Part shown: positions 48,416 through 58,673 of the stretch, in pieces
Position numbering within the stretch: position 1 is the stretch's first letter
Layout of the letters: every line of letters begins with the position of its first letter
DNA from: Verrucomicrobiota bacterium
GTDB lineage: Bacteria; Verrucomicrobiota; Verrucomicrobiia; Opitutales; UBA953
NCBI GenBank assembly: GCA_014193315.1
Contig: BJHS01000012.1
Span: 1 to 64,000, forward strand
Direction: 5' to 3'
Length of the DNA: 64,000 nucleotides
Made by a program: the position numbers and the translations under genes
Notes under the pieces: generated by a model
What the model saw: the letters and a program-made list of their open reading frames with translations, nothing else
The model's database searches: none
What the model was told of the DNA's origin: nothing

Positions 48416-49468
48416 ATGAAAACCGCCCTGACCGCCCTCCTCCTCGCCGTCGGCCTGACCGTCCCCCGGTTGACCGCCGCCGACCAACCCGCCGACCTGA
48501 GCAAGCCCGTGCAGGTCTTCATCCTGCTCGGCCAGTCCAACATGGTCGGGCTAGGCAAGGTGACGGGCCCCACCGGCTCCTTGGAGTTCGCCGTGAAGAC
48601 GAAGAAACTTTACCCCCACCTGGTCGACGCCAGCGGCAATTGGTCCGAGCGCCCCGACGTGCGCTTCGTGCGCGTGATGACCGGCCGAGGCGACATGCAG
48701 CTTTTCAATAACGAGTTCCTCAAGGTGTCCGGCAAGACGATGGGACCGGAATACGGCATGGGCCACCCACTGGGCGACGCCGTGGAAGCGCCGGTGATGC
48801 TGCTCAAGAGCTGCATCGGCAACCGTAGCCTCGGCTGGGACTTGCTGCCGCCCGGCAGCGAACGCCACGTCTTCGAAGGCAAGGTCTACGCGGCCTACAA
48901 GGACCGCCCCGATAGCTGGCCGGTCGATGCCGCCAAAGGCACCGCGACGCCGCCCCCGCCCTGGCTCGACAAGGCCGGCAAGCCGATCGAGTGGTACGCC
49001 GGTAAACAATACGACGACGATACCGCCAACGCCAAGAAGGTCCTGGCCGACCTCGCGAAATACTACCCAGGGGCCAAGGGTTACGAGGTCGCGGGTTTCT
49101 TTTTCTGGCAGGGCGAGAAGGACGGCGGTAACGCCGGCCACGCCGCCAAGTATGAGGAAAATCTCGTGCGCTTCATCAAACAGCTCCGCAAGGATTTCGC
49201 GGCCCCGGACGCCAAATTCGTCCTGGCGACGCTCGGCGAGGCCGAAAAAGGCTCGAGCGGTAACGGCGGCAAAATCCTCGAGGCCCAGCTGGCGGTGGAT
49301 GGTACCAGCGGCAAATACCCCGAATTCAAGGGCAACGTGGCCACGGTCTATGCCCACCCGCTCTCCAAGGGCGGCAGCGGCAACAGCCACTACAACGGCA
49401 ATGCCGAGACCTACATGGAAGTCGGCACGGCCATGGGCCAGGCGATGGTGACCCTCCTTCGGAAATAG
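48416..49468 (+). CDS. SASA-type carbohydrate esterase (sialate O-acetylesterase family)
   Basis: 350 residues, signal peptide MKTALTALLLAVGLTVPRL. The nucleophile block is ILLGQSNMVGLG (Ser in GQSNM), followed by GWDLLPPGSERHVF and the FFFWQGEKDGGNAG region. The catalytic His is expected in the late part (SHYNGNAETYMEVG). These enzymes deacetylate sialic acids or xylan/other glycans. It starts 8 bases after the DUF1501 gene and belongs to the same block. Confidence 0.85.
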   Translation: MKTALTALLLAVGLTVPRLTAADQPADLSKPVQVFILLGQSNMVGLGKVTGPTGSLEFAVKTKKLYPHLVDASGNWSERPDVRFVRVMTGRGDMQLFNNEFLKVSGKTMGPEYGMGHPLGDAVEAPVMLLKSCIGNRSLGWDLLPPGSERHVFEGKVYAAYKDRPDSWPVDAAKGTATPPPPWLDKAGKPIEWYAGKQYDDDTANAKKVLADLAKYYPGAKGYEVAGFFFWQGEKDGGNAGHAAKYEENLVRFIKQLRKDFAAPDAKFVLATLGEAEKGSSGNGGKILEAQLAVDGTSGKYPEFKGNVATVYAHPLSKGGSGNSHYNGNAETYMEVGTAMGQAMVTLLRK

Positions 49469-53379: not shown

Positions 53380-54054
53380 ATGCGCCTACCCACCTACCTT
53401 CTTCTGTTCGGCAGCTTGCTCGCCGGCACCCACCCGCTCTTCGGCCAGGCCAAGCCGCAAAAAGTACTCTTCGTCGGGAACAGCCTCACGAGCCACGGCC
53501 CTAAGGCCGACATCGACTGGCAGGGCAACTGGGGCATGGCCGCGACGTCCTTGGACAAGGATTACGTCCACGTCGTGACGAAGGCCCTCACCGCCAAGCA
53601 AGGCGTGACGCCGGTGATCATGGTCAAGAACGTCGCCGACTTTGAACGCCACCACGTCGGTTACGATATCGCCGGCAAGTTTGCCGACGCCGCCGCCTTC
53701 AAAGCCGACCTCGTCATCCTGTGCATCGGCGAGAATGTCGCCGCGCTGCCTACGCCGGAAGCCCAGGCCAAGTACCAGGAACAGGTCGCCGCCTTACTGA
53801 GGACCCTCCAGTCCAACCCGAAGGTCACCCTCATCGTCCGCAGCAGCTTCTGGCCGAGCCAGACGATCGACACCGCGCTGCGCAAGGCCTGCGAAACCGT
53901 CGGCGGTACGTTTGTCGACATCAGCGCCCTTTCCCAGGACGAACGGAATTTCGCCCGCTCCGAAAGGCTTTTCAAGCATGCCGGCGTGGCCAATCACCCC
54001 GGGGACCGCGGCATGGCCGCGATTGCCGAGGCGATCGTGAAAGCGGTGAAGTAA
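53380..54054 (+). CDS. exported SGNH/GDSL-type hydrolase
   Basis: 224 residues. Signal MRLPTYLLLFGSLLAGTHPL. Block I VLFVGNSLTSHGP (nucleophile Ser in GNSLT), block III ILCIGENVAAL, and C-terminal VANHPGDRGMAAIAE with the catalytic Asp/His-like HPGD. These are acyl esterases of the SGNH fold, commonly acting on glycan acyl groups. It ends the gene block before the 54.1 kb gap. Confidence 0.87.
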   Translation: MRLPTYLLLFGSLLAGTHPLFGQAKPQKVLFVGNSLTSHGPKADIDWQGNWGMAATSLDKDYVHVVTKALTAKQGVTPVIMVKNVADFERHHVGYDIAGKFADAAAFKADLVILCIGENVAALPTPEAQAKYQEQVAALLRTLQSNPKVTLIVRSSFWPSQTIDTALRKACETVGGTFVDISALSQDERNFARSERLFKHAGVANHPGDRGMAAIAEAIVKAVK

Positions 54055-54334: not shown

Positions 54335-54361
54335 AAAAAAGCCCCCGAGAGCGGGGGCTTT
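54335..54361 (-). terminator. intrinsic terminator of the DoxX gene
   Basis: Stem AGCCCCCG/CGGGGGCT (54340-54347 and 54352-54359) with loop of four bases; on the minus strand it is followed by TTTTT, the downstream A-run at 54335-54339. Strong GC stem and a clear T-run. Confidence 0.85.
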
Positions 54362-54382
54362 CGAAAGACCGACGCGGCAGGC

Positions 54383-54853
54383 TTACTTGCCGCCGCAGCA
54401 ACCGGTCGAAGCAGGCTTATCGGAAGAGCTGCAACCGCAACCTCCCGTGGTACCGCAACCGCAACCACTGGAACAACCACAGGTGTTCACGCAGCAGAGG
54501 GCGCAGCGCTTGGAGTAAGCCACGATGAGGGCGAGGATTGTCAGCACAATGACCAGGCCGTCCGTCTTACCATCAAGAAAGAAGCCGATGCAAAGGAGGT
54601 TGACGAGAATCGGCCCAATGATGAACAGACCCCAGACGCGGGTGCGCGGGAGAATCAACAGGATGCCGCCGAGTATCTCCAGAACCTTGACGAACCGCAG
54701 GTAGCCAGAAGCGTACATGGTAGCGATCATCTCGCCGGCCTCCTTGGAGTGCTCGGGCTTCGGCACAAAGCCGAAACGCGCCCAGAAATGGACGCCGAAG
54801 AAGATGAAAGCGGCGCCGAGGAGGAGCGCCGCGATACAGGGGATATTTTTCAT
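54383..54853 (-). CDS. DoxX-like membrane protein with cysteine-rich C-terminal tail
   Basis: 156 residues. Four hydrophobic helices are visible: ALLLGAAFIFFGVHFW, FVKVLEILGGILLILP, LFIIGPILVNLLCIGF and VIVLTILALIVAYS, the DoxX layout. From residue about 117 the C-terminus is unlike DoxX: 11 Cys in 40 residues with CxC, CC and GC spacing (CGCSSGCGCG, then GCCGGK). Such a tail could bind metal ions or a cluster, or hold disulfides. The CDGSH gene lies just upstream on the same strand (40 bases), so a joint redox role is possible. Not a named family. Confidence 0.8.
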   Translation of the reverse strand: MKNIPCIAALLLGAAFIFFGVHFWARFGFVPKPEHSKEAGEMIATMYASGYLRFVKVLEILGGILLILPRTRVWGLFIIGPILVNLLCIGFFLDGKTDGLVIVLTILALIVAYSKRCALCCVNTCGCSSGCGCGTTGGCGCSSSDKPASTGCCGGK

Positions 54854-54893
54854 AGTAAAGGCAGGTTACCTGAAAGGACGGGGGTTGAAAGGG

Positions 54894-55139
54894 CTAATTC
54901 CAGAGGGCCTTGTGCGAACCATCGCAGAGCGCACCCTGCTTAGCATGCTTACAGCCGCAGAAGTACACGATGCCACTGGCCTCGGCCTTGTATGGCACGG
55001 GCGTGAAGGCGCTCCCCTTGTGGGCGCCGTCGCAGAACGGCTGCGACCGACTGTGGCCGCAAGAGCACCAGTAGTAAGTTTTGCCGGCCTCGACGAGGAT
55101 CGGGAGCGGGGATTTTTGCGGGATGTTCGGGGTGGGCAT
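54894..55139 (-). CDS. double CDGSH iron-sulfur domain protein
   Basis: 81 residues with two CDGSH-type motifs, CSCGHSRSQPFCDGAHKG and CGCKHAKQGALCDGSHK, each three Cys and one His, so two [2Fe-2S] clusters are predicted. Family PF09360; the double arrangement is like CISD3/Miner2 and other bacterial tandem CDGSH proteins. Role in redox or iron-sulfur transfer. No membrane anchor is seen. In the same direction as the DoxX gene and probably co-transcribed. Confidence 0.9.
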   Translation of the reverse strand: MPTPNIPQKSPLPILVEAGKTYYWCSCGHSRSQPFCDGAHKGSAFTPVPYKAEASGIVYFCGCKHAKQGALCDGSHKALWN

Positions 55140-55140
55140 G

Positions 55141-55199
55141 GGAAGATGTGGGATTAGGAATCAGGGATTAGGTGTTAGGAAGTGGGTAGAAGGGAAAGT
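55141..55199. repeat. G-rich intergenic tract (CDGSH-pirin spacer)
   Basis: Repeats of GGG/GG with TTA or AAT-type spacers (GGGATTAGG, CAGGGATTAGG, GTTAGGAAGTGGG). Only the G-rich half of the pattern is present here, unlike the mirrored arrays near 18-20 kb. No ORF or hairpin. Confidence 0.6.
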
Positions 55200-55901
55200 T
55201 CAGACGAGGTCGAAGAGGAGGGCTTCAACCGGGCCGTCAGACTTAAACTCCAAGGCACCCGCTTCCTCGGAGCTCACGGCATCACCGGGGCCAAGCTTCA
55301 CATCGCCAACCTGGACCTGGCCTTCGATCAATTGAAACCAGAGCCCGCGGCCCACCGCGAGATTGTGGGCGACGGTGGTGGCGGCGGCCGACTTGATGCG
55401 GTAGACGGAGGCGTCCTGGCTGATGTGCGCGGAACCGGCGCGGCCATCCTGGGAAATAATCAAGACTTTGGTCGCGGCCCGCTGTTCCTCCGTGGGCGTC
55501 CACTCGGCGTAGCGCGGTGGGAGGCCCCCGCGGTCCGGCAGAATCCAGACTTGCAGGAGGTGGAGTGGCTCGGTGGCGGAGGGGTTGAACTCGCTGTGCC
55601 GGACCCCTGTGCCGGCGCTCATGACTTGGATCTGACCTGGCCGGACCTGCGCATGGGTACCGAGGCTGTCGCGGTGCTCGATCGCCCCCTTGAGCACATA
55701 ACTGAAGATTTCCATATCCCGGTGCGGGTGCATCGGGAAACCGACCTCGGGCGCGATGATATCCTGATTGATGACCCGTAAGGAACGGAAGCCCTGATGG
55801 GCCGGATCCTGGTAGTCAGCAAAACTGAAGGAATGCCAAGTGCGTAGCCAGCCGTGGTCGGCATGGCCGCGGTCTTGGGAACGACGAAGGGTCAGCGACA
55901 C
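55200..55901 (-). CDS. pirin family protein (YhhW-like cupin)
   Basis: 233 residues from the GTG at 55901 (SLTLRRSQDRGHADHGWLRTWHSFSFADY), chosen because the bacterial pirin start aligns with it; a TTG start 12 codons upstream is also open. Metal ligands are in MHPHRDMEIFSYVLKGAIEH and GVRHSEFNPS. Bacterial pirins of this type bind Fe or Cu and some have quercetin dioxygenase activity. Two cupin halves. The physiological role is uncertain. Confidence 0.88.
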   Translation of the reverse strand: MSLTLRRSQDRGHADHGWLRTWHSFSFADYQDPAHQGFRSLRVINQDIIAPEVGFPMHPHRDMEIFSYVLKGAIEHRDSLGTHAQVRPGQIQVMSAGTGVRHSEFNPSATEPLHLLQVWILPDRGGLPPRYAEWTPTEEQRAATKVLIISQDGRAGSAHISQDASVYRIKSAAATTVAHNLAVGRGLWFQLIEGQVQVGDVKLGPGDAVSSEEAGALEFKSDGPVEALLFDLV

Positions 55902-56021
55902 CCCCCAGAGCGTGGTCAACTTTGCCGGAAAGTCCAATAAACCGATATGAAATCGACGCCCCTGCCTCCGGCGAATTTGGGTTGAACTCCGCCCGGGGAT
56001 GGTTTCTGTTCAATCCTTCGT

Positions 56022-56213: not shown

Positions 56214-58673
56214 ATGCGACTGCTTCTCTGGCTCTGTACCCTAAGCTGCCTGCGGGCGGGCAACCCTGACATCGAGTTCGCGGGTCCACCGCCCGGACGG
56301 GCCCAAGCCGGGGGCAAGGCCGGGGTCTTTCGACTGGAGAACGCGGTGCTCTCGGCGACTTGGGAGGTCCGCAATGGCCACCTCCTCCCTCGGGACGTCA
56401 CCGATCAATTAACCAAGCGTCGCATCGATCAGGGCGGGGCGGAACTTTTTCGCCTGACCACGACCCCGACGGCACCCAGCGACGGGACCTACCAAGTGGA
56501 CATCCAACTGGGCACCGATCGGGTGATCGTCCGAGCCGGCCAAAGCGGCAAGGGCCTGCAGGAAATCGCCTCCTACCCCCGGACGGACTTCCCCGGCGAG
56601 CCTCGGCTCATCCGCGTCGGCAAGATGAACCTCAAGGCCCAAGCCAAAGATCACTCCGGTGAGGCCGGCCCCGTCGGCGAAGGAAGCATCTTGGAAATCA
56701 ACCCCGCCCCGGCCGGCAAGACGAGTTACGGCTTCAAGCGCCCGGCGAATCGAACCGCCGTGAGCGAGTTCCCCTGGGCCCAAGGCTCGAGTTCTTTCTC
56801 GGCACGCATCGACCGCGGCACCGACGCCGCGCTCTCTTGGTCGCCGGCCGTGGCGTTGGTCTGGGAAGACGGTGAACGCTTCCTCCTGGTCGGGGTTCGC
56901 GACAAGCGCGGCACCTTCAACCTCACCACCGCCAAAGGCGAGAGCGTCATCAGCCCGAAACTGACGCCTTTCCCGGGCGGCGAACTCGCCGCCTCCAGCT
57001 TCGACCTGGTTGGCGACGTCCGCGTCTCGCGCCTCGCGGACGGCCAAGCCCTCGAAGCTGAACTGCGCTCCCGGCGTGGGGTCAAAGCCCGCTGGCGGGC
57101 CGAACTGCGCGATGACTCGCACTATTTCCGCCAAACCCTGGAACTGAGCGCCGACGGCAAGCCGTTCGAGCTCTACGGCGTGGAGTTCACCGACCTGCGA
57201 CTCCCTTCCTTGCGCACGGTGGGTTCAAGTCCGGGTAGCCCGTTGGCCGGGGACGGCTTCTTCGCCGGGGTCGAGATGCCCGGCTCCACCAACGTCGTGA
57301 CTGCCCAGGGCGGCCGCACCGCCTTCGCGTGCACGTTGACGCTTTCCCCGGAGCAGTCCTACGCCTTCGGCGCCGTGACCGGCCTGGCGCCCGCGGGCCA
57401 GCTCCGCCGCTCCTTCCTCCGCTACATCGAGCGCGAACGGGCGCGCCCCAGCAGCCCATTCCTCCACTACAACTGCTGGTACGACCTCGGGTTCGGGGTC
57501 GATGAACCGAAGATGCTCGAGGTGGTGAAAGCCTTCGACACGGAACTCGTGAAAAAGCGCGGCGTGCCGGTACTCTCGTACCTCGTCGACGACGGCTGGG
57601 ATCAACCGTCCAAGGGCCTATGGATCGAACACGAACGCAAGTTCCCCGGGGGCTTCACGGCGACCAAGACGAAGATGGACGCGTTCGGCGCGCACCTGGG
57701 CATCTGGATCTCACCGCTCGGCGGCTATGGCGGCGACAAAGAACGGACCGCCCAAGCCCAGAAGATGGGGATCATCCCCGCGGACGCGAAACTCGACCTC
57801 TCCTACCCGAAGTACAAGCAGTGGTTCGTCGAACGATGCCGCCAGCTGATGCGCGAGGGTGGCGTCAACGCCTTCAAGTGGGATCGCGCCGGCGACGGCG
57901 TGAGCCCGCACTTCATGGCCCTCCTCGACGTCGCCAAGCAGTTGCGCAAGGAAAACGCGGCGGTGTTCATCAACGTCACCGTCGGCACCTGGCCTTCGCC
58001 GTTCTGGCTTAACCACGTCGACTCCACCTGGCGGATGAACAGCAGCGACGTCGGCTGGACCGGCAAGGGCGACGACCGCGAGAAGTGGCTGACGTTCCGC
58101 GACGGCTACTGCCTTAAGTTATTCGTGCAGGCCGCCCCGCTCTACCCCCTCAACTCGGCGATGCACCACGGCGTGGTGCACGGCAGCGCGTTCCAAGGCG
58201 ACAAGGTGGGCAAGGCGGGCAACGACCTGAAGAACGAGGTGCGCTCCTACTTCGCCAACGGCGCCTCGCTCCAGGAGCTCTACCTCACCCCGTCGATGAT
58301 GACGGCGACGGCCTGGGACCACGTGGCGGCCGCCGCAAAGTGGGCGCACGCCCACGCCGACGTGCTCCGCGACGCCCACTGGGTCGGCGGCGACCCGCTT
58401 AAGCTCGAGCCCTACGGCTACGCGGCCTGGAACCCCCGCCAGGCGACGCTGATGGTACGCAACCCGGACGACCAGCCACGGACGATCGAGCTCGACGCGG
58501 ACGAAGTGTTTGACTTGCCGCAGTCGCCCCGCACCGCGACGCCGGCGTTCGACCTCCGCTCCCCCTACGCTGACCAGCGGGTGCGCACTCTCAAGCTCGC
58601 CGCGGGCACCAAGGTCACGGTGACGCTGGAACCGTTTGAAGTCCTCGTCTTCGACACGGATTCCGAGCGCTGA
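56214..58673 (+). CDS. GH36-like exported glycosidase (alpha-galactosidase clan)
   Basis: 819 residues, signal MRLLLWLCTLSCLRAG. The N-terminal beta domain (VFRLENAVLSATWEVRNG) precedes a catalytic barrel with HYNCWYDLGFG, VDDGWDQPSKG, FKWDRAGDG (predicted nucleophile Asp557) and TWRMNSSDVGW (acid/base region). C-terminal beta domain has TKVTVTLEPFEVLVFDT. Clan GH-D/GH36 enzymes cut alpha-galactosides; the blocks are variant, so substrate is open. Located in the glycan block, followed by a small gap to the next gene (3 bases). Confidence 0.82.
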   Translation: MRLLLWLCTLSCLRAGNPDIEFAGPPPGRAQAGGKAGVFRLENAVLSATWEVRNGHLLPRDVTDQLTKRRIDQGGAELFRLTTTPTAPSDGTYQVDIQLGTDRVIVRAGQSGKGLQEIASYPRTDFPGEPRLIRVGKMNLKAQAKDHSGEAGPVGEGSILEINPAPAGKTSYGFKRPANRTAVSEFPWAQGSSSFSARIDRGTDAALSWSPAVALVWEDGERFLLVGVRDKRGTFNLTTAKGESVISPKLTPFPGGELAASSFDLVGDVRVSRLADGQALEAELRSRRGVKARWRAELRDDSHYFRQTLELSADGKPFELYGVEFTDLRLPSLRTVGSSPGSPLAGDGFFAGVEMPGSTNVVTAQGGRTAFACTLTLSPEQSYAFGAVTGLAPAGQLRRSFLRYIERERARPSSPFLHYNCWYDLGFGVDEPKMLEVVKAFDTELVKKRGVPVLSYLVDDGWDQPSKGLWIEHERKFPGGFTATKTKMDAFGAHLGIWISPLGGYGGDKERTAQAQKMGIIPADAKLDLSYPKYKQWFVERCRQLMREGGVNAFKWDRAGDGVSPHFMALLDVAKQLRKENAAVFINVTVGTWPSPFWLNHVDSTWRMNSSDVGWTGKGDDREKWLTFRDGYCLKLFVQAAPLYPLNSAMHHGVVHGSAFQGDKVGKAGNDLKNEVRSYFANGASLQELYLTPSMMTATAWDHVAAAAKWAHAHADVLRDAHWVGGDPLKLEPYGYAAWNPRQATLMVRNPDDQPRTIELDADEVFDLPQSPRTATPAFDLRSPYADQRVRTLKLAAGTKVTVTLEPFEVLVFDTDSER

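Follow-up and report, generated by a model that had tools for sequence, protein, structure and literature searches.

Small membrane proteins of the DoxX type, which have about four membrane helices, are common and poorly understood. In M. tuberculosis, according to passages of two papers, DoxX joins SodA and SseA in an oxidoreductase complex with a function in thiol homeostasis (PMC8289223, PMC7907618, citing Nambi et al., 2015). In E. coli K-12 the DoxX gene yqjF shares its neighborhood with yqjG (glutathionyl-hydroquinone reductase), yhaH, yhaI, the LysR gene yhaJ and the bicupin gene yhaK; YhaJ is described in passages of a further paper as an activator of yqjF that also binds the promoters of yhaK and yhhW, the response being connected with quinol-like compounds (PMC5031710). 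The type 6 CISD proteins, among them MmCISD (PDB 3tbn) and human CISD3/Miner2, are defined by two CDGSH motifs about 20 residues apart (passages of PMC3174974). Within the open-licence literature we found no paper that treats DoxX together with CDGSH, or DoxX together with persulfide; the papers that combine DoxX with cysteine-rich, pirin or metallothionein do not, as far as their titles and the openings of their abstracts show, concern the arrangement reported here, and those joining CDGSH and pirin concern eukaryotes, to judge from the same parts.

Our study concerns a locus in which a DoxX-like membrane protein with a cysteine-rich tail, a tandem-CDGSH protein and a pirin are encoded side by side. 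It lies on the minus strand of the window, by which we mean the whole stretch of 64,000 nucleotides that was analyzed, in the genome of a freshwater bacterium, designated G000 in our comparisons, and comprises the following features:

54383-54853, minus strand: gene for a DoxX-like membrane protein of 156 aa, an ATG-started open reading frame with 29 same-genus homologues
54386-54505, minus strand: Cys-rich tail of that protein, residues 117-156, with 11 Cys and no His, predicted to be disordered and cytoplasmic
54894-55139, minus strand: tandem-CDGSH (type 6 CISD) gene, 81 aa, with two predicted [2Fe-2S] motifs
55200-55937, minus strand: pirin gene of the YhhW (quercetinase) type, from Pfam and PDB matches
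54335-54363, minus strand: hairpin and T run resembling an intrinsic terminator, 20 nt 3' of the tailed gene's stop codon

The genes run in the order pirin, tandem CDGSH, membrane protein, the whole cluster spanning 54383-55937, with gaps of 60 bp between pirin and CDGSH and of 40 bp between CDGSH and the tailed gene. Because both flanking genes lie on the plus strand (53380-54054, Pfam Lipase_GDSL_2; 56214-58673, a melibiase match below the cut-off), the three genes form a separate unit, and we propose that they make up a putative operon closed by the terminator-like hairpin. The folding energy of this hairpin (54363-54335) is unexceptional (MFE -24.1, z -1.38) and the element is missing from the list produced by a simple terminator scan; a promoter scan found no promoter, and a plasmid search gave no match. 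The homologue at locus L183 suggests that the pirin starts at a GTG near 55901 rather than at 55937. The preliminary description of this DNA took in only 54383-55139, where both of its genes are indeed present, but left out the third, the pirin gene from 55200 to about 55901.

The cysteines of the tail are C117, C120, C121, C125, C127, C131, C133, C139, C141, C152 and C153, and the 11 Cys in 40 residues that had first drawn attention to the protein are found in its last 40 residues. Across the 342 six-frame ORFs of the window (at least 60 codons, stop included), the tailed protein has the highest Cys count per 42 residues, 11 against 8 for the runner-up, a density with a binomial P of ~1e-11 at the Cys frequency of the same ORFs. 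The second densest stretch of the window, with 8 Cys in 42 residues, belongs to a 99-aa ORF at position 49326 on the minus strand, which may be a chance frame. His is absent from the last 46 residues in all 24 tailed sequences compared, every one of which has at least two CC pairs, and CxC and CxxC motifs occur too. AlphaFold2 predicts helices at residues 3-25, 51-67, 69-94 and 99-114, with an extra helix at 37-49 within a loop; the pLDDT of the core is mostly 68-90 (blocks of ten residues) and that of residues 121-156 is below 50, and we therefore claim no structure for the tail. Over 64 aligned rows, the mean K+R against D+E is 1.38 vs 0 at the N-terminus, 0.84 vs 1.53 in loop 1, 1.94 vs 0 in loop 2 and 0.53 vs 0.83 in loop 3, and the region after the last helix has a net charge of +1.4 (24 tailed sequences). 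The N-terminus, the TM2-TM3 loop and the post-TM4 region are thus positive and the other two loops net negative, a pattern that, through the positive-inside rule, argues for cytoplasmic placement of both termini. We infer an N-in, C-in topology with the arm in the cytoplasm, and the question of whether the tail faces that side, posed at the outset, would on this charge pattern be answered in the affirmative.

The tailed protein was found in 24 of 57 relatives searched (23 of 37 from the same genus and 1 of 20 others); when a profile was run against 372 genomes of the order, the genus count rose to 29, and six genomes of a sister genus in the same family, g23, were added. In each of the 29 same-genus genomes with the protein there are 9-13 Cys in its last 60 residues, and the absence of the tail from relatives, which the preliminary description had named as fatal to its proposal, was not borne out. 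Most of the genomes compared are incomplete MAGs. The named records are largely the same assemblies as the 29 genomes and were left out of these counts for that reason; the closest records come from Opitutae/Verrucomicrobiota MAGs, and most of them carry isolate names of the lake type (e.g. UBA953, UBA957). Among 245 of the 276 pairs of 24 sequences (core identity 0.40-0.97; L067 was excluded for its mis-set start), aligned tail Cys were kept in 3942 of 4947 cases (0.797) vs 0.516 for other tail residues, in an alignment that itself favors the matching of Cys; Cys of the membrane part were kept in 278 of 852. The tail-less sequence L024 was excluded from the 23-sequence model. Tail dN/dS in 13 close pairs was 0.03-0.26 in ten and 0.62-0.77 in three. 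The length and spacing of the tail vary and indels are present, the number of Cys is kept, and the terminal GCC is invariant in 25 of 25. On these comparisons we take the tail to be real, and it looks selected; chance Cys richness or a wrong reading frame was ruled out by the 29 homologues and the conservation.

The name DoxX, applied to the membrane protein from the outset, is a weak label. The AlphaFold2 model is that of a small protein with about four membrane helices, as expected of DoxX, but the best Pfam score, to DoxX_2, is 11.6 bits against a cut-off of 26.3, and the protein falls below gathering for DoxX/DoxX_2 (PF07681, PF13564). None of the 22 members of homologue set A1 matched DoxX at E 0.01, and set A3 (25 members) gave one DoxX match at 22.9 vs 23.6 bits and one DoxX_2 match at 17.3 vs 26.3; we refer to the protein and its relatives as DoxX-like only, given scores below the Pfam cut-offs. 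Foldseek returned no PDB match at E 0.001 (best E 0.39, with weak VKOR-like/gamma-carboxylase chains at E >4), a profile search of the PDB with the membrane protein returned none at E 1, and NCBIfam returned none for the pirin, CDGSH or tailed protein. Weak matches to JDVT-CTERM in 4 of the 25 members of set A3 (best E 0.0049) were judged to be chance. YqjF was the best of nine E. coli proteins (E 8.4e-4 in this tiny set, best domain 5.6 bits), with an hhalign probability of 2.5%; the sequence relation of the window protein to YqjF is only suggestive.

The pirin has both the Pirin domain (PF02678, 4.8e-36) and the quercetinase C-terminal cupin domain (Pirin_C_2, PF17954, 1.9e-21) of the YhhW/quercetinase type, and its PDB matches 6uts and 1tq5 (E ~1e-68) place YhhW closest. 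It lies upstream of the tailed gene in 28 of the 29 same-genus genomes. Among the 83 loci outside the family, the tail-less gene has pirin next to it in 8 and CDGSH in one (L194), and a divergent LysR gene lies within 1 kb in 13. Of the two neighbors pirin is the older, and a LysR gene pointing the other way often accompanies it, as it does near yqjF/yhaK in E. coli. The E. coli neighborhood is similar in bringing together a small membrane protein of the DoxX type, a bicupin of the pirin type and a LysR regulator, and the YhaJ regulon, as given in the passages of PMC5031710, includes YhhW, the type to which the window pirin belongs. The differences are that E. coli YqjF has no Cys tail, that the E. 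coli neighborhood lacks a CDGSH gene and that the window operon lacks a LysR gene.

In g23 the tailed genes that are whole encode 12 tail Cys, and one gene is split over two contigs. Pirin precedes the tailed gene in L181 and L183, and an ArsR-type gene lies near it in L181, L182, L183 and L186. A fusion of Pyr_redox (pyridine-nucleotide-disulfide-oxidoreductase), rhodanese and YgaP-TM domains adjoins the tailed gene in five of the six g23 loci that hold that side (L181, L182, L183, L184 and L186, not L180); the genes are convergent in L182, L184 and L186, so that a shared transcript is possible in L181 and L183 only. The combination of ArsR with a CoA-disulfide-reductase-like/rhodanese/YgaP-TM fusion is reminiscent of E. 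coli ygaVP. No reductase gene flanks the operon of the window genus in L055-L082.

These data suggest a model, to which we give a probability of roughly 0.4, in which the densely packed thiols of the arm accept electrophiles, oxidants or sulfane sulfur at the membrane, and cytoplasmic enzymes re-reduce them. Anchored in the inner membrane, the Cys arm would hang into the cytoplasm, where its thiols would take up thiol-reactive species formed at the membrane, such as quinones, other electrophiles, oxidants and sulfane sulfur. The pirin of what would be a redox-stress operon may handle quinol-type compounds, and the CDGSH protein may, in one genus, contribute [2Fe-2S] redox chemistry or sensing. 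Cytoplasmic disulfide or persulfide reductases would reset the arm, and in g23 the gene for such an enzyme lies next to it. The M. tuberculosis complex resembles this scheme, in the passages describing it, as a case of a DoxX protein in thiol homeostasis, and the g23 loci carry a rhodanese-domain fusion; it differs in that SodA and SseA genes are absent among the ORFs flanking the window cluster and that those passages do not mention a Cys tail for the M. tuberculosis protein. As the membrane core scores below Pfam's DoxX thresholds, the DoxX precedents may not apply to the thiol-arm model. A conserved Cys arm that is predicted to be cytoplasmic would provide a handle on the working side and the chemistry of DoxX-type proteins, and the same arm with and without an adjacent CDGSH gene offers a natural comparison from which to learn what CDGSH proteins do in bacteria.

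For a Cys-only arm of variable spacing, metal binding fits the composition almost as well as thiol chemistry. The arm might, in the manner of a metallothionein, bind Zn, Cu(I), Cd, Hg or As(III) in metal-thiolate clusters at the membrane, buffering the metal or handing it over for transport, which we regard as possible and somewhat less probable than the thiol acceptor. Cys as the sole ligand, the CC, CxC and CxxC motifs and a Cys count that is kept while spacing drifts all suit soft metals, as does the ArsR-type regulator of the four g23 loci, the ArsR family being one that includes metal sensors. Against this, no metal transporter, metallochaperone or resistance gene was recognized beside the gene in the loci read, under an annotation that was not exhaustive, and the constant neighbors are pirin and the DoxX-like core. 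The high Cys content and CC/CxC motifs of the arm are what we take to be its likeness to metallothioneins; these are small and soluble, however, and the window arm is a tail on a membrane protein whose metal binding is putative.

The preliminary description saw in the tailed protein and its CDGSH neighbor a pair for redox or metal handling. The CDGSH protein itself is as described, with two complete motifs (C25/C27/C36/H40 and C61/C63/C72/H76, all eight ligands present, 20 residues between) in the 81-aa product of 54894-55139 on the minus strand; it matches Pfam zf-CDGSH at E 4.5e-15 and, as its best PDB match, the type 6 protein 3tbn at E 2e-30 over 76 aligned residues. By these two motifs and eight ligands it fits the definition of the type 6 CISD proteins, with which it shares, going by the passages of PMC3174974, tandem motifs separated by some 20 residues; those passages do not speak of an operon that also includes pirin and a DoxX-like gene, as found here in one genus. 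A direct pair would have CDGSH protein and arm exchange electrons, iron or [2Fe-2S] clusters. The two genes are co-located, contrary to the second ground on which the proposal was to fall: CDGSH lies 28-53 bp upstream of the tailed gene in 26 of 29 same-genus genomes, and the tailed gene is 3' of CDGSH in 24 of the 28 closest records (L055-L082). Of the 37 genomes of the genus, 22 carry both genes, 3 CDGSH only, 1 the tailed gene only and 11 neither (Fisher P 4.6e-6, uncorrected for relatedness), counts in which contig breaks overstate absence: two of the "neither" genomes (G029 and G032; L287, L288) have contigs that stop within the pirin gene, so that the apparent absence of the other two genes there is an assembly break, and in G024, counted as CDGSH only, a contig end cuts the cluster within the first codons of the tailed gene (L058).

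Against a direct pair, the tailed gene occurs without a linked CDGSH gene in g23, G019, G163 and G270. CDGSH genes are present elsewhere in the genome in g23 and G163, and no CDGSH match was found anywhere in G019 (99% complete) or G270 (88%); the tail thus does not need a linked CDGSH gene, and at least one near-complete genome, G019, which retains pirin and a 9-Cys tail, apparently has the tail without any CDGSH. In L194, from another family of the order, a CDGSH gene lies 22 bp upstream of a DoxX-like gene without a tail, an arrangement that lends the pair some support and equally means that CDGSH beside a DoxX-like protein arose or persisted without the tail. At L194:2219-3915 a LysR gene is divergent from these two genes. 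Across Verrucomicrobiota, where co-occurrence had been proposed as a check, none of 52 distant CDGSH loci (L083-L134) has a relative of the tailed protein. With pirin as the steadier partner, the notion of a special two-gene pair is not supported, and direct exchange between CDGSH protein and arm seems to us improbable. A further reading, which we consider rather unlikely, is a membrane-tethered thiol or persulfide arm that would be the DoxX-like protein's own cytoplasmic multi-Cys acceptor of electrons or sulfur, coupled to membrane quinone chemistry, with the CDGSH protein joining as a [2Fe-2S] partner in one genus. In L074, L078 and L081 the CDGSH gene has neither pirin nor the tailed gene beside it (L078 is from G163, whose tailed gene sits on another contig); it is followed by another gene, conserved across the three loci, that would encode a small membrane protein.

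Least probable of all is drift, in which an extension of low complexity would have been acquired a single time and retained with no particular task, its Cys maintained through slippage of a G/C-rich, repeat-like sequence. The simple composition, the indels and the lack of a sequence match to protein families beyond the bacterial family would suit it, but the tail Cys are better kept than other tail residues, dN/dS is low in 10 of 13 pairs and the tail is kept across two genera (29 plus 6 genomes).

All 83 loci outside the family encode three Cys or fewer in the final 55 residues, and the tail as a widespread Verrucomicrobiota trait was ruled out on this count. In a tree of the membrane part (64 rows, 117 columns), one branch divides the 35 tailed rows, which include some assemblies twice under two names, from 29 tail-less rows chosen for closeness from the 83 outside loci (support 99/95, 100% of 200 bootstraps); the long rows L216, L194, L265 and L210 are of unsure placement. 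The simplest reading would be a single gain of the tail within the family, from an unrooted tree that cannot tell gain from loss. When the tail by itself was searched against 57 genomes, matches came from five, all at the tailed gene; the search, weakened by low-complexity masking and divergence, missed most known tails. In family f11, L187:2894-3328 and L188:4015-4452 encode short tails with 2-3 Cys that end in SCSI, which may be an intermediate or unrelated.
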